Source of the DNA: Planctomycetaceae bacterium
Lineage (GTDB): Bacteria > Planctomycetota > Planctomycetia > Pirellulales > Pirellulaceae
Assembly (NCBI GenBank): GCA_007127095.1
Contig: SKZY01000443.1
Coordinates: 1 to 36,464, forward strand
Direction: 5' to 3'
Length of the DNA: 36,464 nucleotides
Shown here piece by piece: positions 3,050 to 26,232 of the stretch (positions are counted from its first letter, which is position 1; every line of letters begins with the position of its first letter). The notes under the pieces were generated by a model that had not been told where the DNA came from, made no database searches, and worked only from the letters and a program-made list of their open reading frames with translations. A program made the position numbers and the translations under genes.

Positions 3050-3051
3050 GG

Positions 3052-4683: not shown

Positions 4684-4799
4684 AAGTTGTGGTCAGTATC
4701 CGAGGCCGAAAAGGGCGATCTCGAACAAGCAGTGCAATCTGACGCTCAGCCCTCAGCGATGCAAGGGCGGCAGCGGCGTATCGATTTGCAATGGCGTAT

Positions 4800-6074
4800 T
4801 CAGAGCGACGCGTTGAAGCTGATTTTCTGACCGTCGACCAAACGGTCCGACTCGATCGTCAGCCGCGGCTGATCGCCACCGGCAGCGACCGAGAACGTGA
4901 TCGCCTCGCCGGGTAGTAGACCGCGGAGGCTTCCGGCGGCTCGTACGCCATCGACTGCGACAAAAGCATCATGATAAAGCGGTGCGATTCCCTCGTTGAG
5001 CACCGTCACCTCGCTACGGCCCGCGGTCGAACGGAATCGCGTCACACGGAAACGGTATCCGAGCGCCGTTCCGGCCGCGGCGATCCGAGCGGCCGATTGG
5101 TAGTGTGGCTGGCCGTCGGCGATCATATAGGTAACGTGAAAGCGAGCCGCCAAATCCTCGAATGCGATCCCATGAGGCCCATCGGCTGCCAACGCCAAAC
5201 GCTGGTCGTGGTCGGTGTAGTAGCTGATTTCGCCGCCGGCGGGCGACGTTTGCCAACGATTGGGACCGAATGCCCGCCAACTCTTTGCGTTGTATCCGCT
5301 GTGGTTCTGCGACAAAAACGAATCGTCGAAAAGCCCAAACCGTAGGCTGCAGAGCGACGCGTCGGAAGCCAACGGTGAGCGGGAGCGGTCGGCAGCATCG
5401 ATCGACACCGACCACGGCGTAGCGACAAAAGCGGCGTCCAGGTGACGGACGAAGCGAGCTTGAAAAGCCTTGTCGGGAAACGTTTTTCCCAAAGTCATCG
5501 GACCGTCGTAGATGTGGTACTCGGCCCACAAACCGAACCCGGTCTGCAAAAAGGCGAGTCTGCGGTCGTGGTCGTAACGCCGCGCGAAGGCGGAATAAAA
5601 GTCAAGCGTCGTCTGCTGAAGCAGTTCGCTGCCCCAATCACAGAACGTCGTCGGTTTCCCTTCGCTGGTTCCCGCCGTCTCCTCGTAGCCATCGCCCGCC
5701 TTGATGAATGCGGGTACCGATGACTCTTTCCCAGGATAGACAAAGTAAAATCGCAACACGGCTTGATGGCTTCGTGACGCGATCGAATCGAGCGTCGACT
5801 CGACGAATTGCCAATCAAAATCATCCGGACCACGTATGACGTCGTCGTAGCGCAGGTAAGCGTATTCGAGTTGGATCGGGAGATCGCGGTTGCGGTCGTT
5901 GGTCGACCAGAGAACTAAACCCGTCATCGGCTGCACTTCGGTGATCGATTGTCGCAGCGGGATATCGCGAAAAACCGTCTCATCTGCCGACAACGAAGCA
6001 GCGGTCGCCGTCAGAACGACAGCGATCGCGGCGAGTCGGACAGCACCGATTCGATCACCACAGCCGAGCGGCAT
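4800..6074 (-). CDS. Secreted DUF4832-like protein
   Basis: Signal peptide-like N terminus (VRLAAIAVVLTATAASLSA); body has LEYAYLRYDDVIRGPDDFDWQFVESTLDSIASRSHQAVLRFYFVYPG and FGLWAEYHIYDGP. Family assignment from memory. Confidence 0.6.
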   Translation of the reverse strand: MPLGCGDRIGAVRLAAIAVVLTATAASLSADETVFRDIPLRQSITEVQPMTGLVLWSTNDRNRDLPIQLEYAYLRYDDVIRGPDDFDWQFVESTLDSIASRSHQAVLRFYFVYPGKESSVPAFIKAGDGYEETAGTSEGKPTTFCDWGSELLQQTTLDFYSAFARRYDHDRRLAFLQTGFGLWAEYHIYDGPMTLGKTFPDKAFQARFVRHLDAAFVATPWSVSIDAADRSRSPLASDASLCSLRFGLFDDSFLSQNHSGYNAKSWRAFGPNRWQTSPAGGEISYYTDHDQRLALAADGPHGIAFEDLAARFHVTYMIADGQPHYQSAARIAAAGTALGYRFRVTRFRSTAGRSEVTVLNEGIAPLYHDAFVAVDGVRAAGSLRGLLPGEAITFSVAAGGDQPRLTIESDRLVDGQKISFNASL

Positions 6075-6124
6075 ACGATGTCCTGTTTAATCGCGACTCA
6101 CCAGTGATGCGCGAGGGTTCGCGA

Positions 6125-6145
6125 CCGGGTGCCTCCTGCACCCGG
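6125..6145. repeat. Perfect 8-bp inverted repeat (ccgggtgc-ctcct-gcacccgg)
   Basis: Read directly: CCGGGTGC CTCCT GCACCCGG in the 6075-6643 intergenic region. Confidence 0.7.
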
Positions 6146-6519
6146 CCCGTGAGTGACCCGAATAAGCCTTTCACGAAGAAAAACTGACTCGGATCATCGC
6201 CGGACCAGCCCGTGGCCGTAAGCTGGTTCCGCCTTGACTCACGCTAGGCGAACTCGCGGAAGATCGATCGATTGCCTGACAATGGAAAGCATACCCGTAA
6301 GAAAGTCTCAAACCAGGGCTTGACGCGGTTCGATCGATTAATTTTCGAAGAGCGACCGAGTGTTATCGCGCAAGTCGTTTACCAGAAAAAACTTGCGTCT
6401 TCTTGTGCTAGCAAACCACGCCTTGCATAACATCCCCAACGTGGCCGCTTCTGCTTACACCATCCGTGGTAGACACGGCATTGTCAGTTCTCCGTTCGCG
6501 GGCAAGGCATCGTGCTGCG

Positions 6520-6615
6520 CCCCCTTTCGGGGTCGGTTATCTGTCGGGCAATTCCCCTCCGGGGGTGGTCGCTGCGATCCAACCCCCGGCTAATGGCTTG
6601 TATCCCGAAGGGATG
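6520..6615. repeat. Multi-hairpin intergenic block, candidate REP-like dispersed element
   Basis: CCCC(6521-6524)/GGGG(6529-6532); CCGGGGGT(6559-6566)/ACCCCCGG(6582-6589); ATCCC(6602-6606)/GGGAT(6610-6614), all within about 95 bp. Confidence 0.5.
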
Positions 6616-6643
6616 CTCACCGTCGAATCGATTCCGATCTCAT

Positions 6644-7750
6644 TCAATCGGTGAACGAGCGATAGAGTTGGCGGTAGCGATCGATCATCGCCTCGAGATC
6701 ATGATTCTGCTCCGCCCGGCGTCGATTCTGGTCAGCCAGATCGGCCAGCCTTTGGCGGGGGGCCTTCCAGAGTGATTCGATCAGTGCCGCGAGGGCGACG
6801 GAATCATCGGGGCGACAGGTCTGGTGGTCGGTGGTGTCGCCGAGTAATTCGGACACCCCTTCGACCAGGCTGACGGCGACCACTTTGCCGGCCGCCATTG
6901 CCTCCAGCACCACGTTGGGCATCCCTTCATAGCGGCTGGGCAACACCAGCAGGCGGCTCGCCTTGAGGAATGAATCGGAATCGCTCCGCCAACCGACGGC
7001 GCAAACGCGTGCCGCGCCGAACCGTGATAAGGCTTGGCCAATCTGTGGTCGCAGCGGGCCTTCGCCGACGAAACAGCACCTCAGATCCGGCAATCGGGCG
7101 AACAATTCGGGCATCGCGTCGAGCAGCACATCGATTCCTTTTTGGTAATCGAGGCGGCCGATGAACAGCAAAACCTCCGCGTTGGCGGGCCAACCGAGAT
7201 CGGTCCAATCGATGGCTGACGCCGCAGCGATACGACCGCTATCGATCGAGTTGGGGATCACCAGCGTCGGCGGCAGCGGGGCGGAGAACGATCGCTCGGC
7301 AAACCTCGCTACCGAATCGCTGACACAGACCAAGGCATCCATCCGCGAGATCGCGGTCTGTTCGATCCAGAGCCGCCCACGGGAGGTATCGGCGACACGG
7401 ATTCCGCCGACACAGGTAGCGACACCGGCTGATCTCGCCGCCCAAGTGCCGAGGACATTGGCATGGAACAGCATCGTTTGGACCACATCGGGCCGATCGG
7501 TCGTCAGCCAGTGTCGCAACCGAGCGAAGGCTTGAACTGCCCGCAGTGGTGAATCGCACTCGGTGGTGACGACGTCGATGCCAGCGTCGCGCAATCGCCT
7601 CAGCAGTACCGCTTGGGGACCTTGCGGCAGGCTACCGATCGAGGCGACGCGAACCCGATCGCCGTGATGTTGTAGGCCGAGGGCGAGTTCGGTCAGGCAA
7701 CGTTCGGCGCCGCCGACGAACAATTCAGTGATGATCAGGTCGACCCGCAT
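6644..7750 (-). CDS. Family 4 glycosyltransferase
   Basis: VDLIITELFVGGAERCLTELALGL, LLFIGRLDYQKGIDVLLDAMPEL, CFVGEGPLRPQI, LPSRYEGMPNVVLEAMAAGK (GT4 motifs). Confidence 0.88.
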   Translation of the reverse strand: MRVDLIITELFVGGAERCLTELALGLQHHGDRVRVASIGSLPQGPQAVLLRRLRDAGIDVVTTECDSPLRAVQAFARLRHWLTTDRPDVVQTMLFHANVLGTWAARSAGVATCVGGIRVADTSRGRLWIEQTAISRMDALVCVSDSVARFAERSFSAPLPPTLVIPNSIDSGRIAAASAIDWTDLGWPANAEVLLFIGRLDYQKGIDVLLDAMPELFARLPDLRCCFVGEGPLRPQIGQALSRFGAARVCAVGWRSDSDSFLKASRLLVLPSRYEGMPNVVLEAMAAGKVVAVSLVEGVSELLGDTTDHQTCRPDDSVALAALIESLWKAPRQRLADLADQNRRRAEQNHDLEAMIDRYRQLYRSFTD

Positions 7751-9316: not shown

Positions 9317-10543
9317 TCACCTCAGCAGCGTGGGGGAATCGTTCGTGATCAACGGCTTGGCCCGTCGGCCTTCAGGAAAGATCTTCGTCAACCACTGCAA
9401 GGGTCGTTGGGTCGTGTCGGGATAGGGTTCGATTGCGGTCAATCGATCACGGGCCTGATCGGCGTAGGGAGTTCGATCGTAGTTGGCCAGCAGTTGTTGG
9501 TAATAGACGCGAGCTGCCCCATATTCACGACGCTTTTCGCGGTACTGAGCACGTACAAAGAGCCGTTCGGCTTGCCGGAAGTCGACCTCGGCTGAAGCCC
9601 GAGCGACCATTTCGCTGACCTCCGGGTCGCGCATCTTATCGGGGAAGCGGGTGCGGGTTTGTCGGATCAACTTGTCGGCCTCCTCCAGCACCAATTGGCT
9701 GTATTTGGGCCCGGCGTACATCTCCAACTTGCAGCGGATGCCGAGCAGGTGAGCGTTGAACAGATGCTCGCTGTCGGAGAACGTCTCACGTAAGTCGGTC
9801 AAGAATTCATCGGCCGCCAGGAACCGCCGTTGGCGAAAGTGCTCAACCGCGGCGGCCATGGTGGCGTCATCGGCGAGGCGACCGGTCGGGTCGTCATAGC
9901 GGATTTGGTCAAGCATGCGGATGCCGTGGCCATCGGGGTCGAGCCAAGGCCGTTTTTCGTCGGTGAAGTTGACCGGGATCACGCCGCTGCCGCCGGCCCG
10001 TTCGGTTTCGATCCAATATTGAGCGATCGAGAACAGCCGGGCCGCCGCGCGGTCGCTGTGACGTGAATTGGGAAACTCCTTCTGCAACTTGCTGTACGCT
10101 TCGCCCGCCTTGGGTAGGCGATCGGCAAAGAACAGACTTTCGGCCTGCATGAACAACGCGTCCTGGGCGATCGCCGAGCCGGGATGGGCTTTGGCCGCCT
10201 TTTCGAATTCCTTGGCCGCTTTGGTGAAATCTTTGGCTGCCGCATCACGACGCTTTCTCGATCCGGCACGAAACGCTTCATCACCAGCCTGGTAGTGACC
10301 TTGGGCCTTGGCCAGCCGCTCTTCGCGTTCCTGGGCAGTCAGATTGGTGTTATCCGTCCCGTGCAGGACGCGGTGGGTCCGGTTCTGTGCCGACCGCATC
10401 CAGTTCGGTGTCTGCAGGCTTGAGCAGCCGCCGATCGTTATCGCGGCAGCGCAGAATAGCCCGACAAGCGCCAGTAAGCGGTGGCGGCCGGTCCGGGGGA
10501 CGGGCAAAAAGCGGTCGACGGCGGACGGATCGGGAAGCAACAT
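9317..10543 (-). CDS. BamD-like TPR outer-membrane lipoprotein
   Basis: Signal peptide with lipobox (ITIGGCSS) after ATG at 10543; TPR segments such as SAIAQDALFMQAESLFFADRLPKAGEAYSKLQKEFPNSRHSDRAAARL. Confidence 0.72.
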   Translation of the reverse strand: MLLPDPSAVDRFLPVPRTGRHRLLALVGLFCAAAITIGGCSSLQTPNWMRSAQNRTHRVLHGTDNTNLTAQEREERLAKAQGHYQAGDEAFRAGSRKRRDAAAKDFTKAAKEFEKAAKAHPGSAIAQDALFMQAESLFFADRLPKAGEAYSKLQKEFPNSRHSDRAAARLFSIAQYWIETERAGGSGVIPVNFTDEKRPWLDPDGHGIRMLDQIRYDDPTGRLADDATMAAAVEHFRQRRFLAADEFLTDLRETFSDSEHLFNAHLLGIRCKLEMYAGPKYSQLVLEEADKLIRQTRTRFPDKMRDPEVSEMVARASAEVDFRQAERLFVRAQYREKRREYGAARVYYQQLLANYDRTPYADQARDRLTAIEPYPDTTQRPLQWLTKIFPEGRRAKPLITNDSPTLLR

Positions 10544-10640
10544 CGTGCGGACATCCTGGTCGCGACTGGCGCAATGGCGACGGCAAGCGGTACCGGCGCG
10601 GACCCGAATCGGTGAGCCCGGAGCCATGGGAAACGCATAC

Positions 10641-11399
10641 TTAGTGCGCAACCCAGTTCGCTGGCAACAGCGATTGTGTCCGAGGCGCCATTCCCAGCGT
10701 GGTGCAGACGTAGCGACCGACGACGGCCCGCAAATCGCGGTAATCGCTGGCTGCAAGCGGCCCCGACAGTGGCTTTTGGGAACGTTGTCGCACGGCGATC
10801 TGGTCAATCACACCGCGGCGGACCGACGCCACCTCGCGTTGGCCACCGCGGCAGGCCGGACAAAGGACTCCGCCGAGTTGGTAGGCGAACGGTACTCGGG
10901 CACCGGCAGACTCGATCGCTCCACCACAACCGACACAGGCATCGGTCGCCGGAGCGTTCCCGAGCAGTCTCATCGCTCGCAGTTCGAAATCGAGTACCGC
11001 CGTCAAGGCGTCTCCATCGCCATCGATGGTTTCGATCGTCCGCGTCATCAAGTCGAACAATTCCTCACTGGCGACTCCGTTTTCGGTCCACATCCGCAGC
11101 AGTTCGGCGACGTAGTAGCCACAGTGCAGTCGGATCAGACTCGTCTGACCGGCCCGAAAGCGTCGTTGCAACTTGGCTTCGGTCAGCAAATCGAGGGCGT
11201 CGGATGATTTGCAAATGACCACGATCCGCGAGCAGGCCAACAGGTCGAGCGCCCCTTCGAACGGACCTTTGGGACGCCGCGCTCCTTTGGCGAGCGCCGA
11301 CAAGCGGCCGAAGTGTCGCGTGTAGAGCGTCACGATCAGACTCGTTTCGCTGAACTCGACGACCCGCAACACGATCGCCTCGGTCTGCTCGGTAGACAT
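10641..11399 (-). CDS. recO: DNA repair protein RecO
   Basis: EAIVLRVVEFSETSLIVTLYTRHFGRLSALAKGARRPKGPFEGALDLL; zinc-ribbon CVGCG...CPAC. Confidence 0.92.
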   Translation of the reverse strand: MSTEQTEAIVLRVVEFSETSLIVTLYTRHFGRLSALAKGARRPKGPFEGALDLLACSRIVVICKSSDALDLLTEAKLQRRFRAGQTSLIRLHCGYYVAELLRMWTENGVASEELFDLMTRTIETIDGDGDALTAVLDFELRAMRLLGNAPATDACVGCGGAIESAGARVPFAYQLGGVLCPACRGGQREVASVRRGVIDQIAVRQRSQKPLSGPLAASDYRDLRAVVGRYVCTTLGMAPRTQSLLPANWVAH

Positions 11400-14499: not shown

Positions 14500-15522
14500 T
14501 CAGTTCGGCGGCAGGCCCGCGATCGGCATCGCCACACGGTAGAGGCCGGTCCGGGCCGTGATGTAGAGCGTCTTCAGGTCGGGACCGCCGAACGTCACAT
14601 TGGCGGGTTGTTCGGCGACTTCGATCAAGCCCCGATATTCACCCGCGGGCGAAAAGATCTGCACGCCCAGGTTCGACGTGATGTACAGGTTGCCCTGTTC
14701 GTCGACGACCATCCCGTCGCCACCGGTATCGGTCTGTCCTTCGGGCTGGACCAAACGGCAAAAGACCTCGGCTTCGCCCAACATGCCTGGCCCGTTGATG
14801 TCGTAAACGAGCATCTCGGCCTGCCGGCTGGGGATCAGATAGAGCCGTTGTCCGTCGGGTGAGAGGGCGACACCGTTGGGTGCAGCCAGCGGGCCGGTCA
14901 ACCGCGACACGGTCCCGTCGGCCGCGCGATAATAGACCGCCTGAAAACCTTGCGGCAGCGGATCAGGCGCGCGGAACAGCGGATCGGTGAAGTAGATCCC
15001 GCCGTGGGCGTCGACGACCAAGTCGTTCGGCGCATTGAACCGTTTGGCTTCGTAGGTGTCAGCCAAAACATCGACCTGACCACTGGTCGGGTCGTAAATC
15101 ACCACGCGGCCGTCCATCTGGCAGGCGACCAGTTTCCCGGCGAACTTCCCGGTGGGTGAATAGACGATCCCGTTCGTGTGGCCGGAATCGTCACTGAACA
15201 CGGAAAACTCACCGTCGCTATCGAAGGCGTAGATCTTGTTAGCGGGAATGTCACTGAAGTAGAGCACACCGGATGAGGAGTCGTAGGCAGGTCCCTCGGT
15301 GAATTCGAATCCGCCGCGGACCAACTCCACCGCGCCGAGCGGTTCAAGCGGTTCAGCCGCGAGAGCCGCACGAGGCGACGCGACGCTGCCGATCGCAGCG
15401 ACCGCAAGGGTGATCGAAAGCGGGAGAACGAACCGGCGGAGACCGCGACGGTGAGACCGGGTATCAACGGAGCGATCAAGGACGTCTCGACGTTGAAAGG
15501 CATGCAGGCTGGGCATCGGCAA
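14500..15522 (-). CDS. SMP-30/gluconolactonase family protein, secreted
   Basis: FTEGPAYDSSSGVLYFSDIPANKIYAFDSDG, RFNAPNDLVVDAHGGIYFTDP, PNGVALSPDGQRLYL. Confidence 0.88.
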   Translation of the reverse strand: MPMPSLHAFQRRDVLDRSVDTRSHRRGLRRFVLPLSITLAVAAIGSVASPRAALAAEPLEPLGAVELVRGGFEFTEGPAYDSSSGVLYFSDIPANKIYAFDSDGEFSVFSDDSGHTNGIVYSPTGKFAGKLVACQMDGRVVIYDPTSGQVDVLADTYEAKRFNAPNDLVVDAHGGIYFTDPLFRAPDPLPQGFQAVYYRAADGTVSRLTGPLAAPNGVALSPDGQRLYLIPSRQAEMLVYDINGPGMLGEAEVFCRLVQPEGQTDTGGDGMVVDEQGNLYITSNLGVQIFSPAGEYRGLIEVAEQPANVTFGGPDLKTLYITARTGLYRVAMPIAGLPPN

Positions 15523-15819
15523 GAAACTCCGGGGGGGAATCGGCGGGAAAATCGACCCCGCAGTTTAACCCAACGCCATCCAAGCCGCTGGCAACCGCCA
15601 CCGATATCGGCACGTTGGGGTGGTTCGTAGTGTAGTTCGCTTCTGTCCCTCGCCACTCGCCACGTACACCTCGGTTTCAGACCACTCGGGCCTGCATCAT
15701 TGCTCAAACGCTCGGTGCCTGCGGGTGATCCGGCGGCGAACCTGCTGACGATGGCGGGAAAACTTCGGCGGATGGTTTTTCCCCGTGGGATTCGGGTGAG
15801 ATCCGCTTAAATAAAGGTG

Positions 15820-16359
15820 ATGGATGAAATCAGTCGCCACGAACCGCCTACTTTGCGTTACCTGGAACTGGTAACGCAGTCGCAGCGGACGCTCTACAGC
15901 GTTCTCTGGTCGTTGTTGCGCGATCTGCACGATGTGGACGACGTGTTGCAAGAGACCAATGCGGTTCTGTGGCAGAAAGCCGCCGAATTCGATCCCTCAC
16001 GCGATTTTCTGCCCTGGGCGCTACGGATTGCTCAATTGCAGGTGATGGCCTTTCGCAAGCGACAACAGCGAAGCCGGCTGGTATTTGACGACGAGCTGGT
16101 CGCGGCGCTGGTTGATCAGAGCGTTGCCGAAGCCGGCAGCGTCGAGCCGCGGCGGCGGGCCTTGGCGGAGTGCCTGCAGAAGCTGAGCTTCGAGCAGCGG
16201 CGGTTGGTCGTACGGCGGTACGAGCCGGGCGGGTCGGTCAATGACTTGGCATCCCAGCAGGGGCGCTCGCCGAAGGCAGTCTCCGAGGCGCTACGCAGGA
16301 TTCGCGCAGCACTGCTGGACTGTATCGAGAAAACACTGGCGCGGGAGGCCCATGCATGA
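15820..16359 (+). CDS. ECF-type RNA polymerase sigma factor, Rhodopirellula/Verrucomicrobium family
   Basis: LRYLELVTQSQRTLYSVLWSLLRDLHDVDDVLQETNAVLWQKAAEFDPSRDFLPWALRIAQLQVMAFRKRQQRSRLVFDD, plus region-4-like LAECLQKLSFEQRRLVVRRY. Confidence 0.92.
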   Translation: MDEISRHEPPTLRYLELVTQSQRTLYSVLWSLLRDLHDVDDVLQETNAVLWQKAAEFDPSRDFLPWALRIAQLQVMAFRKRQQRSRLVFDDELVAALVDQSVAEAGSVEPRRRALAECLQKLSFEQRRLVVRRYEPGGSVNDLASQQGRSPKAVSEALRRIRAALLDCIEKTLAREAHA

Positions 16360-17765
16360 GTCGAACGTCCGATGGGGAACTGGAACGGCTGTTCAGCGCT
16401 AGCGTTGACGGGTTGCTAAGCGAGCCCGAAGAGTCGGCGCTGTCCGAGCGACTACGCAATGACGCCGCGGCTCGACGGCTGTATTTGCGGTTCATGCAGT
16501 TGCACGCGGAGCTTCACTGGGATCATGGTGTTTCGGCCGCCCTGCTGGTCGAATCATCGTTCGAGGCCGGTGCGACACCTGCAGATGGTCCTTCGCGGGA
16601 TGACGTGCGGAGGGCCAATCGTGCGACGTGGTACGTACTGGCCTTGATGAGCACGGCCGCGGGTGTGCTGTTGGCCATTACGATTTCCCTCCTGCGGGAC
16701 CGTGCGACGCCAGCGGTAGTGCCGTCGACGATTGCCACGGTCGAATCGGTACAGGGAGCGGTCATATTTCGATCGGCTCACGAAGAACAACTCTTGGTTG
16801 ATCGTGAGTCGCAGGCGTTGTCGGCCGGAACGCTGCTGCTGGAGGGCGAGGATTCGGCCGTGCAGTGCCGGTTGTTGGACGGGACGCTGATCATGCTGAC
16901 GGGCGATGCCGAGGCGCACATCGCGGACGACGGCCGGAAACGGATCCGGTTGTCGCGCGGCTTGCTGACGGCTGAAGTTCAGCCACAGTCGGCCGCCGCA
17001 CCGATGTTGGTCGAGACCCCGACCGCGAGGGTCGAGGTGTTGGGGACGGTGGTCACGCTATCGGCCGAGCCGGACCGAACCAGTGTGCGCGTCGATTCCG
17101 GCCGTGTGCGTATGGCTCGGCTGGTGGACGGCCGCGAGGTCGAAGTGGCCCGCGATCATGCCTGCGTCGCGTCGTTGGACGCCCGTGAAGAGCTGCGTCC
17201 GCATCGCACCTCGGCCGCCGCTAGCCACTGGCGGCAAACATTTGTCGAACCGCCTCCATCCCGCTGGAAGGGCCAATGGCAGGCTCCCGTGGGTGACGAG
17301 CCGGGCCGGATGCGAGCGGTTCCCTGCGTCGTAGGACGCAAGGATGAAGCGATGCCGGTGGTCCATTTCGGCGTCTCCGTCCGCCGTGTCGAGGGCGTCG
17401 ATTTGGGGCAACTGCCGGCCGACGGCACACTGTGGATCAAGTATCGCCTCGAGCGGCCGAGTCCACTGCGGATCATGCTGGGCGTCAACCGTGGCGACGG
17501 CCGCTTCGGAGGCAACTTCGAGGTCAAGCTGGGATCGAAGACGACGGTCGTGGCCGAGGACCGCTGGCAATGGCTCGAGATTCCTCTGTCCCGATTGAAG
17601 CCGCTGGTGTCGCGATTTCCGGAAATGGCCGAGGGTGACCGGCCGTACTTGATTCTGTTTACCACGTTTGAAGACGACGGCGGTCTGGAGATCGCCGAAC
17701 TCGGCATTACCGAAACGGGCATTACCGAGCTGGGCATTACCGAACCGGAGGACAACCGCCGATGA
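16356..17765 (+). CDS. FecR-domain protein (anti-sigma/transmembrane regulator)
   Basis: TM segment (TWYVLALMSTAAGVLLAITISLL); FecR-like AEVQPQSAAAPMLVETPTARVEVLGTVVTLSAEPDRTSVRVDSGRVRMARLVDGREVEV. ATGA overlap with the sigma gene. Confidence 0.88.
   Translation: MSRTSDGELERLFSASVDGLLSEPEESALSERLRNDAAARRLYLRFMQLHAELHWDHGVSAALLVESSFEAGATPADGPSRDDVRRANRATWYVLALMSTAAGVLLAITISLLRDRATPAVVPSTIATVESVQGAVIFRSAHEEQLLVDRESQALSAGTLLLEGEDSAVQCRLLDGTLIMLTGDAEAHIADDGRKRIRLSRGLLTAEVQPQSAAAPMLVETPTARVEVLGTVVTLSAEPDRTSVRVDSGRVRMARLVDGREVEVARDHACVASLDAREELRPHRTSAAASHWRQTFVEPPPSRWKGQWQAPVGDEPGRMRAVPCVVGRKDEAMPVVHFGVSVRRVEGVDLGQLPADGTLWIKYRLERPSPLRIMLGVNRGDGRFGGNFEVKLGSKTTVVAEDRWQWLEIPLSRLKPLVSRFPEMAEGDRPYLILFTTFEDDGGLEIAELGITETGITELGITEPEDNRR
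17697..17741 (+). repeat. Three tandem 15-nt units encoding E-L/T-G-I-T
   Basis: gaactcggcattacc / gaaacgggcattacc / gagctgggcattacc at the FecR C terminus. Confidence 0.9.
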
Positions 17766-19054
17766 TTCACTTTGACACGATCCGTCGCCGCAGTTTCTTT
17801 TACGGGGCCGGAGTGACGGTTGCGTTGCCGTTCCTCGAGTCGTTGGCCCCGTGCACCGGCCTGGCCACCGAGCCTTCGGCAGCGCCGCCGCGGCGGTTTG
17901 CCTTCATCTACACGCCCAATGGCTACTGGCAGGAAACGTTTCTTCCCGCACCGGTCGTCGGCGACTGGACCGCGACGCCGACGCTCGGGCCGCTGGCGCC
18001 GGTTCGCGAGCACGTCACGCTCGTCACCGGCCTGGATCGCCAGTTCGTCCCCGGCACCGGCGTGCATGCCCAGGCCGGTTGCTGCTGGCTGACCAGTTCA
18101 GCTCCTCAAGAGACGCTCGACGGCGGCTTCCCCACCAACATCACGCTGGATCAACTACTGGCGAAGGAACTGGGCCGGCAAACGCTGCTGCCGTCGCTGG
18201 AACTGAGCTGCAACGACTTCGTCGACAACCGAGAGACGAAGTATTTTGAATCGATCTCCTGGTACGGCCCCGGCTATGCGGCCAACACGGAGAAGGACCC
18301 GCGCGCGGTGTTCGAGCGGCTCTTCGGCAAGCCGCAGTCGGCGGCGACGCGAAGCGTCTTGGACGTCGTGCTCGCCGACGCCCAAGCGCTCCACCGGCGT
18401 CTGGGACGAGACGACCAGGCAAAGCTCGACGAGTTTCTCGGCAGCGTCCGCGAAGTCGAGCAGCGCATGGAACGGGCCGAGAAGCTGGCCGCTTCGCGTG
18501 AACAATCGCCTCTGACCCAACCGGCCGGAATTCCCGAGAAACGCGGCGATTACCTGCGGTTGATGGCCGACCTAACGATCCTCGCGTTTCAGCAGGATCT
18601 GACGCGTGTTGTCACGCTGGTCGTCGATCCGGAACGCTGGGACTCGCCCCGCATGTACCACGACCTGTTCGATTCGCCGCAGAACCACCACGTGCTGACG
18701 CACACCAAGGGGGACGAGGCGAAGGAGAAACTGGCCCGCATCGATCGCTTTCATGTCGAGTTTTACGCCGACGTCGTGAGGCGGCTGGCGGCGATCCCTG
18801 AAGGCGACGGCACGCTGCTCGATTCGTGCTGCGTCGCCATGGGCAGCGGTCTGAGCGACGGCGATTCGCACAACTACCGCGATTTGCAGGTGCTGCTGGC
18901 CGGCCGAGCCGCCGGAGCCGTCGCGCCGGGGCGGCATCTGCACTACGAGGGGCACCGCCCCCTGGCGGACCTTTGGCTGACGCTCGGCAAAATCGGCGGG
19001 ATGAAGCAAACACGGTTTGCGGACAGCACAGCGTTATTGGACGAATTGTCATGA
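17762..19054 (+). CDS. DUF1552 secreted protein
   Basis: RRRSFFYGAGVTVALPFLESLAP (Tat-like), RRFAFIYTPNGYWQETFLP, VLTHTKGDEAKEKLARIDRFHVEFYADVV, DSCCVAMGSGLSDGDSHNYRDLQVLLAGRA. ATGA overlap with the FecR gene. Confidence 0.88.
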   Translation: MIHFDTIRRRSFFYGAGVTVALPFLESLAPCTGLATEPSAAPPRRFAFIYTPNGYWQETFLPAPVVGDWTATPTLGPLAPVREHVTLVTGLDRQFVPGTGVHAQAGCCWLTSSAPQETLDGGFPTNITLDQLLAKELGRQTLLPSLELSCNDFVDNRETKYFESISWYGPGYAANTEKDPRAVFERLFGKPQSAATRSVLDVVLADAQALHRRLGRDDQAKLDEFLGSVREVEQRMERAEKLAASREQSPLTQPAGIPEKRGDYLRLMADLTILAFQQDLTRVVTLVVDPERWDSPRMYHDLFDSPQNHHVLTHTKGDEAKEKLARIDRFHVEFYADVVRRLAAIPEGDGTLLDSCCVAMGSGLSDGDSHNYRDLQVLLAGRAAGAVAPGRHLHYEGHRPLADLWLTLGKIGGMKQTRFADSTALLDELS

Positions 19055-19151
19055 ATCGTCGTGAGCGACGGCATCGTCAAGCCGCTGGTTTCCGTATGAA
19101 ATGTCAGCCGATCTGGGACAATCAGATAAACACCAAGTGCAACGCGAATAA

Positions 19152-19313
19152 ACGCACCTGGCGGCAATCATTGACCAATTTCACTCCGTGGAGCAGTTCG
19201 AGGAATACGGCTTGCGGCATCTGGTCAAGCTCAACCGCATTGGATTCGATCAAATGTTCCAACGTCTCGGCAGGCGTGGGCTTTCGCCGTGGAAAACTCG
19301 AAGTGTTTATCGC
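19152..19313 (+). pseudogene. Possible coding remnant (N-terminal extension in frame with the downstream esterase)
   Basis: Frame opens after a TAA at 19149-19151: THLAAIIDQFHSVEQFEEYGLRHLVKLNRIGFDQMFQRLGRRGLSPWKTRSVYR. Protein-like composition but no ATG, and it precedes a convincing signal-peptide start at 19314. Confidence 0.35.
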
Positions 19314-20300
19314 ATGTTAAAGCACATTTCATTCTTGCTTGTCTCGGTGAGTGTTTGGCCGTTGTACGCCGACGCGCTGCCGCCTGCGGAGCCGTTGGTT
19401 GTCGGACTTTGGCCGAAAGAACCGCCGGGTCCACCCGCCGTGACTAACGGACCGGAGCAGGATCTGACGAAGCCTGAAGATCGGCTGATCGCGGGACGGC
19501 GGATCATCAAGCTGGGCAACGTCAGCGACCCGGAGATGCACGTCTTCCTGCCGCCGGCCGAGCGAGCAAACGGCGGTGCGGTCGTTGTCTGTCCCGGCGG
19601 CGGGTTCAGTATCCTGGCTTGGGATTTGGAAGGGACAGAGGTGGCCGAGTGGCTCAACAGCATCGGTATGGCCGCGGTGGTCGTCAAATACCGCGTGCCG
19701 ACTCGGCAGCACGGGGTGCCCGGCAAATGGCAAGGTCCGGTGATGGATGCTCAGAGAGCACTGAGTCTCACGCGCCACCGAGCGGCCGAGTGGAACATCG
19801 ACCCGCAGCGTATCGGCATTCTCGGCTTTTCTGCGGGTGGCGAGACGGCGGCGCTAACGGCGGTAAAGAACGGCCGGCGGCTGTACGAGCCGACCGACGA
19901 GGCGGATCGGACGCCGTGCGTGGCGAACTTCGCGCTGCTGATCTATCCCGGCGGGATTGCCGAGAAAGACGGCGTTCTCAAGGAGGATTATCGTGTGGAC
20001 AAGCAGACGCCGCCGATGTTCTTCGTCCATGCAGCCGACGACAATGTCACTTGCCAAAGCAGCGTCGCATTGTTCTCGGCGCTGCAAAAGGCCGGAGTGC
20101 CGGCCGAGCTGCACATCCACACCAGCGGCGGCCACGGCTACGGACTGCGTGCCACAAACCTGCCGGTTACGCATTGGCCGCACCATGCCGAGACGTGGCT
20201 GAAGCAGTTGGGCTTGACGGCGTCATCCGCATCGGTCGCCAGTGAACCGCGGGACGGCAACCCCGTCGATCAGCTGCCGATCAAAGGAGAAAATCAGTGA
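19314..20300 (+). CDS. Secreted alpha/beta hydrolase (acetyl-xylan esterase / BD-FAE type)
   Basis: MLKHISFLLVSVSVWPLYADALP signal; GGAVVVCPGGGFSILAWDLEGTEVAEWLNSIGMAAVVVKYRVP; nucleophile elbow GFSAGG; late D and GGHGYG. Confidence 0.87.
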   Translation: MLKHISFLLVSVSVWPLYADALPPAEPLVVGLWPKEPPGPPAVTNGPEQDLTKPEDRLIAGRRIIKLGNVSDPEMHVFLPPAERANGGAVVVCPGGGFSILAWDLEGTEVAEWLNSIGMAAVVVKYRVPTRQHGVPGKWQGPVMDAQRALSLTRHRAAEWNIDPQRIGILGFSAGGETAALTAVKNGRRLYEPTDEADRTPCVANFALLIYPGGIAEKDGVLKEDYRVDKQTPPMFFVHAADDNVTCQSSVALFSALQKAGVPAELHIHTSGGHGYGLRATNLPVTHWPHHAETWLKQLGLTASSASVASEPRDGNPVDQLPIKGENQ

Positions 20301-22438
20301 AATCATCGCGGATTCGTTATCCTATCGCCGCCTGGCTGTGGCTGATGGTTGGTATCGCTGCCGCGGCGGATCGGGGTCAATACGCTCGCGACGTTCGACC
20401 AATTCTGCAAAATTACTGCTTCGACTGCCACTACGACGGCGACGATGCCGAAGGGGGCGTGAACCTGGAGCGGTTCGAATCCGAAGAGCAGGTGCTCAGC
20501 GACCGCGGGATCTGGAAATACGTTTTTGACAAAGTCGAGTCGCGGCAGATGCCGCCGCCGAAGGAATCGGCGTTGCCCACCGACGCCGAGCGGCGGCGGA
20601 TTCTCGACTGGATCGCAGGCATCGCTGCGGCCCCCGACCCGGCGCTCGGTGCGATCGATCCGGGTAAGCCGATTCTGCGTCGACTGACGCGGCTGGAGTA
20701 CAACAACACGGTCCGCGATCTGCTGGCACTTGATATCGACCTGTTCATGTTCCCGGAACGGCTTCCTTTGGCCAACAAGAACTACTTCCAGCCAGAAACG
20801 GGAAAACTCGAGTCGCCGCTGACCGTTCGCGTCCGGGAGTATGGCGGCAAATATCCGGTGCTGCTCCCTGCCAGCGGCCTGCCGGGTGACAACCGGGCCG
20901 AACACGGTTATCGCAATCGGGGCGATGCGATGAATGTCTCGCCGCTGTTGCTGGAGAAGTACGTAGCCCTGGCGAGCGAGATCGTCCATCATCCGGATTT
21001 GCCCCGGCACAGTGCGGTGTTTGCCTGGTTGCTGGGGATCGATGCGGAACCGGCACAGGCTGCCCCTGCAGTTGGACCGCGTGAACGTCTGATCGTCTTC
21101 TTAAGACACGCTTTTCGCCGACCGCTAACCGACGACGAAATTGTGCCGTACGTTGAATTGTTCGAATCCGCTCGGCAATCCGGCCGGTCGGAAGCCGACG
21201 CCATCCGCGTCGCCGTACAAGCCGTCTTGTCATCGCCCAGCTTTTTGTTCCTGGCCGAATCCGCCAATCCCAGCGGCACCGAGTTACCCCTTCCCGCGGC
21301 GAGCCACTCACCAACGGTTCGTCCGCTGACCGACCATGAACTGGCCAATCGTCTGAGTTACTTCCTCTGGTCGTCGATGCCCGACGAGGAACTGATGAAG
21401 TTGGCCGACAGTGGGGAGCTGAGTGACGAAGCGACACTGACCGCCCAGACGCTGCGGATGCTCCGCGATCCCAAGTCGCGCGAGCTGAGCGAATCGTTCG
21501 CGGTCCAGTGGCTCAGGCTCGATCAGTTGTACACCTCCCAGCCGGACCGGCGGCTGTTCAAGCAGTATTATTCGGGCCCGCAGGGGAAGAACACGCTGCA
21601 CGCCTCGCAGCTTGTCGAGGCCCTGCTGCTGTTTGAAACCGTGCAGGTTGAGAATCGCAGCATCCTCGATTTGATCGCAGCCGATTACACCTGGGTCAAT
21701 CCTCGGCTGGCCCGCCTGTACGAATTCGATCTGGACCAGCAACTCGATCCTCCAGAGGCTGGTAGAGCCGTAGGCAATCGCGAACAGCCCCCCTCCGACC
21801 GTAGCTCGAACAACCTCTGGTGGCGGCTGCCACTGGCCGACTCCTCGCGGGGCGGCTACCTGACCATGTCCGCCCCGCTGACGGTCACGTCGCTGCCGTT
21901 TCGCACCAGCCCGGTCAAACGCGGCGCGTGGATGTTGGAGACCATCTTCAACCGCCCGCCGACCGAGCCGAAGGTGGCATTCGCGTTTGATGACGACACT
22001 CAGGAATCTGCCGCGGCCGAGAGCATTCGTGCCCGTTTCGAGGCCCACCGCAGCCAGGCGGCCTGCTATTCGTGCCACATTCGGATCGACCCGCCCGGCT
22101 TCGCCCTAGAGCATTTCGACGCTATCGGCGCCTGGCGCGAGTTCGATGGCGGTCAGGCGGTGGACGCGCGGGGCGAGTGGAACGGCCGCGTCTTCGACGG
22201 TCCCGCCGAGTTCAAAAGCCTGCTCCGCCATGACCCACACGAGTTCACCCGCGGATTCATCGAGCACCTGCTCAGCTACGCCCTGGGCCGAAAATTGGAA
22301 CTGGCCGATCTGCCGATCGTCGAGCAGATTCAGCAAAAGGCTCAAGACTCCGATTATCGGCTACAACAGATCGTCTGTGAGGTCGTGGCTTCTTACCCGT
22401 TTCGTCATCTGCGGAGCGACATTGGACGACCGGATTGA
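20297..22438 (+). CDS. PSCyt1-DUF1587-DUF1592-DUF1588-type secreted cytochrome-like protein
   Basis: Signal peptide; PILQNYCFDCH (20417-20431); RLTRLEYNNTVRDLLALD; LSYFLWSSMPDEELMKLADSGEL; KRGAWMLETIFNRPP; CYSCHIRIDPPGFALEHFDAIGAWR (CYSCH at 22064-22078). Confidence 0.92.
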   Translation: MKSSRIRYPIAAWLWLMVGIAAAADRGQYARDVRPILQNYCFDCHYDGDDAEGGVNLERFESEEQVLSDRGIWKYVFDKVESRQMPPPKESALPTDAERRRILDWIAGIAAAPDPALGAIDPGKPILRRLTRLEYNNTVRDLLALDIDLFMFPERLPLANKNYFQPETGKLESPLTVRVREYGGKYPVLLPASGLPGDNRAEHGYRNRGDAMNVSPLLLEKYVALASEIVHHPDLPRHSAVFAWLLGIDAEPAQAAPAVGPRERLIVFLRHAFRRPLTDDEIVPYVELFESARQSGRSEADAIRVAVQAVLSSPSFLFLAESANPSGTELPLPAASHSPTVRPLTDHELANRLSYFLWSSMPDEELMKLADSGELSDEATLTAQTLRMLRDPKSRELSESFAVQWLRLDQLYTSQPDRRLFKQYYSGPQGKNTLHASQLVEALLLFETVQVENRSILDLIAADYTWVNPRLARLYEFDLDQQLDPPEAGRAVGNREQPPSDRSSNNLWWRLPLADSSRGGYLTMSAPLTVTSLPFRTSPVKRGAWMLETIFNRPPTEPKVAFAFDDDTQESAAAESIRARFEAHRSQAACYSCHIRIDPPGFALEHFDAIGAWREFDGGQAVDARGEWNGRVFDGPAEFKSLLRHDPHEFTRGFIEHLLSYALGRKLELADLPIVEQIQQKAQDSDYRLQQIVCEVVASYPFRHLRSDIGRPD

Positions 22439-22595: not shown

Positions 22596-24968
22596 CTAAC
22601 GGACCGTGATCGTCGGTTCGTTTCCCGGATCGATCGGCGGCAACGCGTCATCGAAGCGGGTCGGGTCATTGATCCGGTTGACGTATCGCCACATCGCTAC
22701 GGTCAGGATGAAGATGATCGCCAATGTCACCGCGCCGTCGACCAATAGCCGGCGTTTGAGTTCACCGACCGGGGCGAACACCTTCGACAAGCGGTATTGC
22801 ACCAACACGAGCAACTCGGTCGTCGGTACCGTCGAGCGGTCTTTGGCGGCGACACGGTCATCTTCGGTGGTCGTCGGCGTGCCATCGGTCCCCGTGCGGG
22901 TAGCGTCGAGTGGGACGACCGATGAAAACGAGCCGCTGGGGGTGAATCGCCCGTTGGGGCCGACGATTTCTCTCGGCAGCGACACGGGCGCGACCGCGGC
23001 GAGCCATTTGCCGGCGAACAGTTCGCCACCCGGAGCGGCCGCCATCGGGTCGTGGTAGTCGACATCGCCGCCGGCGAGCAATTCATCGAGTACTCGAGGT
23101 TCGACCTGAAAGTGTTCTTCTCCTAACGGTGAAACGCTGTCGGCATGGCGATCCATCAACGGGTGCTGCAAGACCGTTCCTCTCAGTGGGCCTTCTCGAA
23201 CATCGACAACCACGGCCAATTGATCACTCAGTTTGCCATCGCTGGTCGATTCGAAATCGCCCAGGTTGGTCGTGATCACGAAGACGCCGTCGGGCGGTCG
23301 CAGTTCGGTTTCCGGGTCGCCGGCCGCCCGCTCGGGGGTGAGGTAAATCGGCATGCTGAAAGCCAATTTCCACAACCCGGTGGCGGTGCTTTGGAAGGCC
23401 CGTGAAACGTGCGGCCCGGTCAACGGGGTGATCGACCTAGGCGGCGTATCGCGAGGCAATTCGTTCCGTTCGCCGTGAAAGTAGGTACGGAAGGCAAAGT
23501 TCATACCGGTACTCAGCTGCGCCTCCTCGACATCGGTGTCGAACGCGATCGCTACGATCGTCCCTTGGGCGTCGGTGATGAACATCGTCGAAATATCGGG
23601 CAGCAAATTGTCGGGGTCATCGAGGTAGTCGGTTAAACGCAGGCTGAGTTGGGCATCGAGCGGGAGGCGATCGGCGTGCCGCAGGAAGTTTTCTCGATCG
23701 CCGGCCGCTTCTGCGGGGGCATCGATGATCCGTTGTCGCATTTGAGTCATTTCGTCCGACGCCAGTAGGTCACGAAAGACGGCACGAGTGGCGCCATCAG
23801 CCGCTTCACGGGCCAAGACGTGAAAGTAGCTCTGCAGTTCGTTTTCCAATGACCGGGCCGCAAACCGGGCGGCCATCTGGTTGCTGGCCCGCGCCTCGGT
23901 TCGCAACGCTTCGGTCGCGCGGCTGCTGGTTTCGAGAATGCTGTAGGCGGCGAAGCCGCCGCTGAACAGCATCAACAACAGCGGGCCGACGATGCCCAAC
24001 AGCATCAACGGACGCCGGGCCCGCGCTTGGTCTCTTTGGTCGAGCGCCGCCAACACCTGTTGAACGTTGGCGAAACGTTGCGCCGGATCGGGGGCGAGAC
24101 AGCGATCGACGATCGCCGCCAACGACCGGTCGACGCCACGACGACCGCGATGAGCGATCGGACGGACGTCATTCACGATCGCGGTGCGATAATGTTCGAG
24201 CCGCTTGGGCAGCGACCCGGCGGTGTCGATCCGACCGAGGAGCGATTCGTCACGGTGGGGAATTTTGCCGGTCAGCATTCGGTACAGGATCACGCCCAAG
24301 GCATAGACGTCCCACCGCGCATCCGGGGCTGCGTCGAGGTTCGCTTGCTCAGGAGCCATGTAAAACAAGGTGCCCAGCGAAGGCGATTGGTCGTGTGACA
24401 TCCGGCTCTGACCAAAATCGGCCAGGCGTGGCGAATTGTCGGAATCGAGCAGGATATTGCCCGGTTTGAGGTCACAGTGCAGCACCCCGCGACCGTGGCA
24501 ATGGTTCAAACCGACACAGATCTTGCGAAAGATATCGACCGATTGGCTGACCGGCAGTCGGCCGGTCGCCTGCAGCAAATCCTCCAGCGATCCGTTGGGT
24601 AGGAACTCCATCACGTAGAATGGCGGTTCGGCATCCCAGCCGACATCCAACACCTGCACGATCGACCGTTCGGCCGACAACTGCACCAGATTCTTCACCT
24701 CACGGGACAGCAGCGACCAATTGACGCCGCCACGGTGCAGGTAGAATTTGACGGCGACCGGGCGTCCCGTGTTCAAGTCATGGCCAAACCAGACCTGGCC
24801 GAACGTCCCAGCCCCCAAGAAACGATCGAGCCGATAACCCGGCAGCACCGCCGGTGGAGCCGTCGGCCGACGACTCAATTCCTCGGCTTGCAGCTGTTCC
24901 CCCAAGCTTTGCTGTTCTGTCTGATCGCCAATCACAAGTTCCGTATTCCTCTCAGCATGCTGCCCCAT
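22596..24968 (-). CDS. Transmembrane Ser/Thr protein kinase with extracytoplasmic sensor-like domain
   Basis: YRLDRFLGAGTFGQVWFGHDLNTGRPVAVKFYL, GVLHCDLKPGNILLDSDNSPRLADFG, APEQANLDAAPDARWDVYALGVILYRMLTG. TM1 LMLLGIVGPLLLMLFSGGFAAYSIL, TM2 LLVDGAVTLAIIFILTVAMW. ORF is open to 25055. Confidence 0.93.
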   Translation of the reverse strand: MGQHAERNTELVIGDQTEQQSLGEQLQAEELSRRPTAPPAVLPGYRLDRFLGAGTFGQVWFGHDLNTGRPVAVKFYLHRGGVNWSLLSREVKNLVQLSAERSIVQVLDVGWDAEPPFYVMEFLPNGSLEDLLQATGRLPVSQSVDIFRKICVGLNHCHGRGVLHCDLKPGNILLDSDNSPRLADFGQSRMSHDQSPSLGTLFYMAPEQANLDAAPDARWDVYALGVILYRMLTGKIPHRDESLLGRIDTAGSLPKRLEHYRTAIVNDVRPIAHRGRRGVDRSLAAIVDRCLAPDPAQRFANVQQVLAALDQRDQARARRPLMLLGIVGPLLLMLFSGGFAAYSILETSSRATEALRTEARASNQMAARFAARSLENELQSYFHVLAREAADGATRAVFRDLLASDEMTQMRQRIIDAPAEAAGDRENFLRHADRLPLDAQLSLRLTDYLDDPDNLLPDISTMFITDAQGTIVAIAFDTDVEEAQLSTGMNFAFRTYFHGERNELPRDTPPRSITPLTGPHVSRAFQSTATGLWKLAFSMPIYLTPERAAGDPETELRPPDGVFVITTNLGDFESTSDGKLSDQLAVVVDVREGPLRGTVLQHPLMDRHADSVSPLGEEHFQVEPRVLDELLAGGDVDYHDPMAAAPGGELFAGKWLAAVAPVSLPREIVGPNGRFTPSGSFSSVVPLDATRTGTDGTPTTTEDDRVAAKDRSTVPTTELLVLVQYRLSKVFAPVGELKRRLLVDGAVTLAIIFILTVAMWRYVNRINDPTRFDDALPPIDPGNEPTITVR

Positions 24969-26232
24969 GACACGTTCGTTTTCGTTCCTGTTGATTCTAT
25001 CGCTGATCGTCAACCGAGGAGTCATTCCGACCGCGGCAACCGCGGCTGACGACATCGCGGCCGACCGAAAAACCGACGATCAAGCTACCGACAACCAGGG
25101 CGCCGACGTGCCGCTCCCGCTCGACGGCGAAGCGGGGCGCGACCTGTCGGTTCGACTGTTCACCCCCCGCAGTCGGCTGGTCACGCCGCGGACCGAGATC
25201 AGCGGGGCGAAGTTTCCGGTCGTCGACGTGCATACCCATTTTTTCTACAAGTTACGACACAATGAGCAGGCGTTGGACGATTTTGTCAGGTTGATGGACC
25301 GTAACGACATTCGCGTCTGCGTCTCGCTCGACGGGCGGCTCGGCGGACAATTAGACAGTCACATCGATTTTTTACATCGGCGATATCGGGACCGATTCGT
25401 GATTTTCGCCAATATCGACTGGCAGGGTGATGGCGACCCTCAAGACCCGGCCACGTGGGACTGCCTCCGCCACGGATTCGCTGACCGCACCGCCGCCCGC
25501 TTGAGCGCCGCCGTCGACCGCGGGGTTGCCGGGTTGAAAGTCTTCAAGCGATTGGGCTTGGAATACAAGGATGCCGAGGGGGAGTTGCTGCGGATCGACG
25601 ACCCGAGGTGGGACCCGATCTGGGCGGCCTGCGGACGATTGGGAATCCCGGTATTGATCCACAGCGGCGATCCGGCGGCCTTCTTCGACCCGGTCGATCG
25701 CTTCAACGAACGCTGGGAGGAACTCAGCCGCAACCCGAGTTGGAGCTTTCACGGCCCTGAGTTTCCGGCGCTGGACGAACTGCTGCAGGCCCGCAACCGC
25801 GTGATCGCTCGCCACCCGCAAACCCGCTTCATCGCCGCTCACCTGGCCAGCAGTGAGCACGACCTAGAGACGCTCTCGGTTTGGCTGGACACCTATCCCA
25901 ATCTGTATCTCGACATCGCATCGCGGATCAGCGAATTGGGGCGGCAACCTTATTCGGCACGCAAGTTTCTGATCCGACACGCCGACCGCGTCCTCTTCGC
26001 CACGGATGGCCCGTGGCCCGAACAGCGGTTGCACGCCTATTGGCGATTCTTGGAAACACGGGACCAAGCCTTCGACTACAGCGAGAAAACGCCTCCTCCA
26101 CAGGGTTTGTGGCAGATTCACGGACTCGGTCTGCCCGATGATACGCTGCGAAAAATTTATTACCGCAACGCCGCCGAATTGATACCTGGCATCGCAGACA
26201 GGCTGGGCGACGTCGAGACGGAGGTCGATTGA
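24967..26232 (+). CDS. Secreted amidohydrolase (Amidohydro_2-like TIM barrel)
   Basis: Signal peptide MTRSFSFLLILSLIVNRGVIPTAATAA; FPVVDVHTHFFYKL; IPVLIHSGDP; FIAAHLASSEHDLETLSVWLDTYPNLYLDIASR; VLFATDGPWP. Confidence 0.88.
   Translation: MTRSFSFLLILSLIVNRGVIPTAATAADDIAADRKTDDQATDNQGADVPLPLDGEAGRDLSVRLFTPRSRLVTPRTEISGAKFPVVDVHTHFFYKLRHNEQALDDFVRLMDRNDIRVCVSLDGRLGGQLDSHIDFLHRRYRDRFVIFANIDWQGDGDPQDPATWDCLRHGFADRTAARLSAAVDRGVAGLKVFKRLGLEYKDAEGELLRIDDPRWDPIWAACGRLGIPVLIHSGDPAAFFDPVDRFNERWEELSRNPSWSFHGPEFPALDELLQARNRVIARHPQTRFIAAHLASSEHDLETLSVWLDTYPNLYLDIASRISELGRQPYSARKFLIRHADRVLFATDGPWPEQRLHAYWRFLETRDQAFDYSEKTPPPQGLWQIHGLGLPDDTLRKIYYRNAAELIPGIADRLGDVETEVD

Follow-up and report, generated by a model that had tools for sequence, protein, structure and literature searches.

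Does the sigma factor and FecR pair on a planctomycete contig govern the three exported-protein genes that follow it, and if so, in answer to what signal? The question arises from the 36,464 nucleotides of contig SKZY01000443.1 (the window, meaning the whole stretch of DNA that was analysed), which belongs to a Pirellulaceae-type planctomycete genome. Here five plus-strand genes at 15820-22438 follow one another in the order extracytoplasmic function (ECF) sigma factor, FecR, DUF1552, esterase and DUF1592. Dedicated promoter control of this cassette is well supported by sequence comparison, and centres on a candidate promoter element directly ahead of the sigma gene. The element, the genes and the proposed sensor domain are as follows.

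15784-15809, plus strand: candidate ECF promoter of the sigma clade, CGTGGGATT-N10-CCGCTTA, 10 nt before the sigma ATG
15820-16359, plus strand: ECF sigma factor of the TIGR02989 (Rhodopirellula/Verrucomicrobium) family, by profile match
16356-17765, plus strand: FecR-type anti-sigma (PF04773, 1e-12)
17223-17720, plus strand: FecR C-terminal CBM11/CIA30-like domain, proposed ligand sensor, by Foldseek
17762-19054, plus strand: DUF1552 (HXXSHH) protein with a Tat-like (twin-arginine translocation) signal and a predicted fold of the sulfatase/alkaline-phosphatase superfamily (PF07586)
19314-20300, plus strand: exported alpha/beta-hydrolase esterase (PaeX/AxeA1-like; BD-FAE/Abhydrolase_3), candidate carbohydrate esterase
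20297-22438, plus strand: DUF1592 planctomycete cytochrome, with the six Pfam domains PSCyt1-PSD3-PSD5-PSD4-PSCyt3-PSD2 all over cutoff

A first-pass annotation, made from the sequence alone, had described these five genes as an overlapping same-strand cassette, and the gene coordinates confirm the strand and three overlapping junctions: ATGA at 16356-16359 between sigma and FecR, ATGA at 17762-17765 between FecR and DUF1552, and GTGA at 20297-20300 between the esterase stop and the GTG start of DUF1592, the last with a good Shine-Dalgarno sequence (aaaggag). The sigma gene is thereby coupled in translation to FecR, and FecR in turn to DUF1552. "Overlapping" does not extend to the DUF1552/esterase junction, since the esterase start is most likely ATG 19314, which leaves a gap of 259 bp. 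Both flanking genes are oppositely oriented, and the five genes therefore constitute one directon.

The candidate promoter has the bipartite consensus CGTGGGATT-N10-CSGCTWA (CGGCTAA-like in relatives) and precedes the sigma gene in all five sampled genomes of its clade, with a single mismatch in the copy from genome G101. Sigma proteins of this clade are 53-76% identical to that of the window and start at an ATG 8-10 nt after the element, a spacing for which ATG 15820 was preferred over the alternative GTG start at 15817. Across seven sites from the five genomes the 9-base and 7-base blocks are conserved, and the mean top-base frequency is 0.53 in the 10-base spacer and 0.48-0.49 in the flanks, against a random level of 0.47. 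The fetched loci (3.27 Mb, both strands) contained seven exact matches, two of which are one locus fetched twice (L065 and L069), and one match with a single mismatch, all at loci of this sigma clade; a first-order simulation predicted none at zero or one mismatch. The genome of the window has one exact match, at 15784-15809. Across the class, the 398 genomes scanned gave nine, four of them before this sigma gene or its operon and five inside open reading frames (ORFs), while a reversed-pattern control over the same genomes gave one. The matches inside ORFs (two further genomes and three species of one genus, the latter three being copies of one gene) were rejected as chance occurrences. Generic sigma-70 promoter and terminator scans were uninformative. 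The simplest reading is that the element would be a dedicated ECF promoter, giving a nearly leaderless transcript and serving a regulon of one or two sites.

Other copies and patterns were noted beside this element. At L067, in G101, a second exact element at 11365 (+) points away from the sigma gene, its target gene lying beyond the contig end. Three loci of a different sigma clade (L071, L074 and L076), with operons that run sigma, FecR, DUF1549/1553, DUF1501 and WD40, have their own conserved pattern, TGTCCAAA ... TAGCGGAGTA, directly before the sigma start, and each sigma clade may own a separate promoter code.

A link between the element and the exported genes is seen most directly at L227. 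There sigma-FecR is divergent from an operon composed of a FecR remnant, DUF1552 (71% identity), a 328-aa protein, the esterase (57%) and DUF1592. Each of the two directions has its own intact copy of the element, the second copy pointing towards the DUF1552-esterase-DUF1592 operon. The first-pass annotation had suggested that the sigma/FecR pair may directly control the exported module; with an exactly spaced element before the sigma gene, and at L227 also before the operon, the pair very probably does so. The remnant is a 110-aa ORF at 10529-10858 (-) that joins a novel start to a C-terminal FecR segment (34% identical to FecR residues 362-449) and sits between the intact element at 10893 (-) and DUF1552, which suggests an inverted sigma-FecR duplication in which one copy decayed and its promoter was retained.

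The same genes could have come together differently, with sigma and FecR as one unit and DUF1552, esterase and DUF1592 as an independent planctomycete-cytochrome cluster that lies behind it by chance. The genome has 16 DUF1552 and 16 DUF1592 matches, in pairs that mostly occur without sigma/FecR and that usually run DUF1592 then DUF1552 with no dedicated sigma; this and the 259-bp gap ahead of the esterase would suit such loose adjacency, whereas the ATGA coupling of FecR to DUF1552 and the element that faces the DUF1552 operon at L227 argue against it. The phylogeny of DUF1552 bears on both sides. FecR association requires seven changes on the tree, at least five of them forced, yet shuffled labels require about 11.3, and as few as seven were reached in one of 500 shuffles, which makes the association more clustered than in the other 499. 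On this tree FecR association is thus clustered, yet it appears to have been gained or lost several times. The window protein belongs to a 12-row clade (Shimodaira-Hasegawa-like approximate likelihood ratio test, SH-aLRT, 95) that spans at least six families, excludes every other DUF1552 copy in the window's genome, and also lies near FecR in six other loci (L064, L068, L227, L232, L237 and L159). We regard loose adjacency as quite improbable. In the scan of 398 genomes the DUF1552 clade was seen in 11, including that of the window, its members being 53-72% identical to the window protein before a drop to 45%; this patchy spread fits horizontal transfer, and the cassette is apparently mobile.

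How general the arrangement is was assessed from 60 Pirellulaceae loci chosen by the presence of a TIGR02989 sigma factor. FecR is the next gene in 57 of the 60. At 21 loci the same-strand run downstream includes a DUF1549/1553 or DUF1592 gene of the planctomycete-cytochrome kind, and at 27 it includes at least one cytochrome, DUF1552, DUF1501 or sulfatase gene. Chance would place a cytochrome gene there in an estimated few per cent of cases, a rough yardstick taken from the 16 DUF1592 copies here and the 41 copies of each DUF1549/1553 domain given for Rhodopirellula baltica (PMC2754498). Sigma-FecR pairs followed by planctomycete-cytochrome genes are thus common, at 21 of 60 loci, and the kind is known, since such a link had already been suggested for Rhodopirellula. 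Sigma/FecR was seen together with DUF1592 and DUF1552 at L064, L075, L080, L089, L134, L159 and L227, and FecR with both at L068, L070, L232 and L237, where the sigma gene was not called or falls outside the DNA that was fetched. The expectation that sigma/FecR would recur with DUF1552 and/or DUF1592 in other planctomycete genomes was thus upheld in several of them, but that of a self-contained five-gene system with an esterase was not: the esterase set was found only in the window and, rearranged and with the 328-aa protein ahead of the esterase, at L227.

What varies is the middle slot. L064 (sigma 71%, DUF1552 71% and DUF1592 62% identical) has SGNH-like and glycoside hydrolase (GH)-like genes between DUF1552 and DUF1592; a sulfatase and a propeller protein fused to a cytochrome are added at L080, sulfatases at L089, the dehydrogenase fusion described below at L229, a PdxA-like gene at L232, and both PdxA-like and sugar-acid-kinase-like genes at L237. 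Given this variation the esterase would be exchangeable cargo, and it was rejected as a defining feature of the system.

Several of these neighbourhoods have features of their own. The SGNH-like and GH-like proteins, which have no Pfam matches, recur beside DUF1592/DUF1552 at L064 (12301-14895) and L159, in different families, and may form an unnamed pair active on glycans; for the L064 GH-like protein neither PDB nor Pfam gave a match. At L229 a minus-strand gene (2492-7549) encodes a 1686-aa fusion of glucose/sorbosone dehydrogenase, PKD, cytochrome c, CBM6, ThuA and LamG domains and adjoins DUF1592-DUF1552-GH-like genes. At L065/L069 a sigma factor that belongs to the clade of the window sigma and shares its element leads to FecR and then to a diheme protein of 1075 aa that matches the hydrazine-synthase-alpha middle domain (PF18582, 3e-19).

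To what signal would the pair respond? The sigma factor scores 155.9 bits against TIGR02989 (cutoff 124.6; 124.55 unrounded), matches Sigma70_r2 and r4_2 in Pfam as expected of an ECF factor, and is the only above-cutoff TIGR02989 member found in its genome; a protein scan of genome contigs gave two true relatives and a third, weak match in an Akkermansia metagenome-assembled genome. Its partner has the organisation of a FecR-type anti-sigma adjoining an ECF sigma factor: an N-terminal, cytoplasmic helical domain (residues 1-62), one transmembrane segment (~90-116), a FecR/cell-surface signalling (CSS) domain (164-252) and a C-terminal CBM11-like beta-sandwich (~290-455). The AlphaFold2 model (predicted local distance difference test, pLDDT, 84.6, with only 22 sequences in the alignment) places helices at 3-62 and 90-116, and its FecR domain was matched by Foldseek to the PupR CSS structure 6ovk and to BDI_1681. 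The C-terminus matched the CBM11 structures 6r31 and 6r3m with probability 1.00 and a template modelling (TM) score to the target (TMt) of 0.48-0.50. Beyond the FecR domain, Pfam gave no match in any of the 22 FecR homologues; among 52 other sampled planctomycete FecRs, 29 match Laminin_G_3 and two CBM96.

The TonB-dependent transducer that characterises FecIRA cell-surface signalling, whether beside the pair or elsewhere in the genome, was not found: no TonB-dependent receptor (TonB_dep_Rec) was detected in the genome, which is 95.6% complete, nor among those proteins of the window near the cassette that were examined. The first-pass annotation had remarked on the lack of a transport gene at the locus; this holds, even genome-wide, and for that reason was rejected as a peculiarity of the cassette. 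With no such receptor detected, a FecA-like transducer of that family would not be the route of the signal. The best candidate sensor is the lectin-like domain that the anti-sigma itself carries at its C-terminus, its glycan sensing being putative.

The exported products were examined for what they might act on. DUF1552 matches PF07586 at 6e-76 (256 bits against a cutoff of 30), with its HxxSHH-like motif in the variant form HVLTHT. Across 40 sequences R9, R10, R45, H102, H310 and H314 are invariant, and R9 R10 are the twin arginines, which bears out the Tat-like signal proposed earlier. A PDB sequence search with this protein returned nothing useful and only the fold search was informative, the AlphaFold2 model (pLDDT 84.2, 40 sequences) matching arylsulfatases and other alkaline-phosphatase-superfamily enzymes with a Foldseek probability of 1.00 and a TM score of ~0.4. 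The esterase carries the signal peptide MLKHISFLLVSVSVWPLYA from ATG 19314 and the serine motif GFSAG; its best NCBIfam models fall below cutoff (PaeX, 169 bits against 550; AxeA1, 125 against 700) and its PDB relatives include acetyl xylan esterases, so that by sequence it is closest to hydrolases of pectin-acetylesterase or acetylxylan-esterase type and a candidate carbohydrate esterase. Two CxxCH heme motifs, at residues 41 and 590, make the DUF1592 protein a diheme planctomycete cytochrome, in keeping with the c-type cytochrome-like character first suggested. Together the exported set would probably oxidise or trim a polysaccharide.

That diheme protein also invites an explanation in which the system is mainly one of electron transfer, using an extracellular or periplasmic acceptor, and the esterase is incidental. 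L065/L069, where the sigma gene leads to the diheme HZS_alpha-like protein and no recognised hydrolase lies directly in the operon, would agree with it, but hydrolase, CBM and sugar-acid genes are frequent around the DUF1552 clade, and a published analysis of gene context ties PSCyt in Verrucomicrobia to carbohydrates (PMC5615132). A predominantly redox role seems unlikely to us.

We consider it rather probable that the five genes make up a single ECF/FecR cassette that regulates itself and brings its own cargo, glycan-sensing and with exported products that act on polysaccharide. In such a cassette FecR would hold the sigma factor at the membrane until an oligosaccharide bound the CBM11-like outer domain, in place of the TonB-receptor contact of FecA/FecR systems; ligand binding is proposed for this step because no TonB receptor was detected. 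Other FecR systems use regulated proteolysis, and it is probably in this way that binding would release or activate the sigma factor; the freed sigma factor would transcribe its own operon from the element in a positive loop. The products would be exported, DUF1552 by Tat and the esterase and cytochrome by Sec. Their target would be a polysaccharide, or oligomers of it, that is acetylated and perhaps sulfated. There the esterase would strip acyl groups, DUF1552 with its sulfatase fold would be either a partner or a metal-dependent hydrolase, and electrons from sugar oxidation would pass to the diheme DUF1592 protein; the middle-slot hydrolase would be exchanged from one relative to another, so that the module suits different glycans. 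The cargo of relatives agrees with a glycan role, comprising sulfatases, the glucose/sorbosone dehydrogenase-cytochrome-CBM6-ThuA fusion, and PdxA, sugar-acid-kinase-like, SGNH and GH-like proteins. The fuller proposal, of a TonB-independent switch in which FecR itself binds the sugar and frees a dedicated sigma factor with a one-promoter regulon, the operon being a horizontally mobile, exchangeable unit of oxidative polysaccharide degradation with planctomycete cytochromes and a sulfatase-fold DUF1552 protein at its core, is put forward tentatively, as a possibility that may well prove wrong.

A number of points weigh against this cassette model, which is built on sequence and predicted folds. 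The element pattern was partly built from the loci on which it was scored, the own-genome and class-wide scans being more independent; its two blocks lie close together by the standard of ECF promoters, in the lower part of the range, and its role could instead be that of an operator or of a leader element. The second element at L227 may derive from duplication of the sigma promoter and have survived by chance. The CBM11 match reaches a TM score of ~0.5 to the target from a query model built on 22 sequences, and the sulfatase likeness of DUF1552 is one of fold, at superfamily level. To our knowledge, sugar oxidation by DUF1592 proteins has never been shown. Furthermore, heat, cold and salt shock all induce the R. 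baltica ECF factor RB10049, proposed regulator of RB10051 (PMC2754498); this speaks for the sensing of stress rather than of substrate, and many ECF factors are stress regulators. The pair might accordingly respond to stress, general or of the envelope (heat, salt, cold), and the module might be a stress or envelope-repair response instead of a system for substrate use. A CBM11-like domain on FecR, the Laminin_G_3 and CBM96 domains of other planctomycete FecRs, and glycan-directed cargo among relatives (sulfatases, esterases, CBMs and sugar dehydrogenases) speak against a stress response, which we hold to be improbable.

The surroundings of the cassette comprise the following features.

14500-15522, minus strand: gluconolactonase/SMP-30-like neighbour (PF08450, 7e-47), divergent from the cassette
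19055-19313, no strand: low-GC intergenic stretch of 259 bp from DUF1552 to esterase, for which no homologue was found
22596-25055, minus strand: Ser/Thr kinase gene on the downstream flank

The gluconolactonase-like protein would suit a lactone product of sugar oxidation and is a possible partner. The intergenic stretch has a GC content of 52.5%, against 62-65%, and includes a 64-codon open frame of protein-like look on the minus strand; neither stretch nor frame had a Pfam match or a relative among the fetched loci.

Parts of this arrangement are known from other systems. As in FecI-FecR and PupI-PupR, an ECF sigma gene is followed by a one-pass FecR anti-sigma, whose FecR domain model here matches the PupR CSS structure. 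The window differs from them in that a TonB-dependent transducer is absent from the locus and was not detected in the genome, that FecR bears an additional CBM11-like domain at its C-terminus, and that the targets, which are exported enzymes plus a cytochrome, share the operon of the regulators. ECF/FecR pairs control glycan-degradation genes through glycan sensing in the polysaccharide utilisation loci of Bacteroidota; in contrast, the window locus has no SusC/SusD-like genes, sensing is proposed through the CBM-like domain of FecR itself, and the proposed chemistry is cytochrome-linked and oxidative rather than that of glycoside hydrolases. Closer in lineage are the PSCyt gene pairs of Planctomycetes and Verrucomicrobia, in which PSCyt3 lies beside an unknown family and is linked to carbohydrates by context (PMC5615132); the window likewise sets a DUF1592/PSCyt3 gene near one of unknown family (DUF1552) in a glycan-related neighbourhood, but with the order reversed, the esterase between, and sigma/FecR in front. 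Closest is the proposal of Studholme et al., cited in PMC2754498, that RB10049 controls the PSD1/PSC2 protein RB10051, again a planctomycete ECF factor thought to govern an adjacent planctomycete-specific cytochrome. That cytochrome is of DUF1549/DUF1553 type, whereas here DUF1592 occurs with DUF1552 and an esterase, and neither a promoter element nor a lectin-type FecR sensor is among the features described for the pair in the part of PMC2754498 that concerns it. Since the ECF/planctomycete-cytochrome link had already been suggested there, the first-pass description of the cassette as a candidate undescribed system is too strong; our search of the open-access literature returned no description of the promoter element, the CBM11-like FecR sensor or the five-gene order.

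The planctomycete-specific cytochrome and DUF families are very abundant, and their function has been obscure since they were first described. A single module with its own sigma factor, a sugar-binding-like sensor and a recognisable promoter makes the inducing glycan, the promoter and the enzymes each testable. It also suggests that ECF/FecR signalling may operate without TonB-dependent receptors, by means of a ligand-binding domain on the anti-sigma itself.

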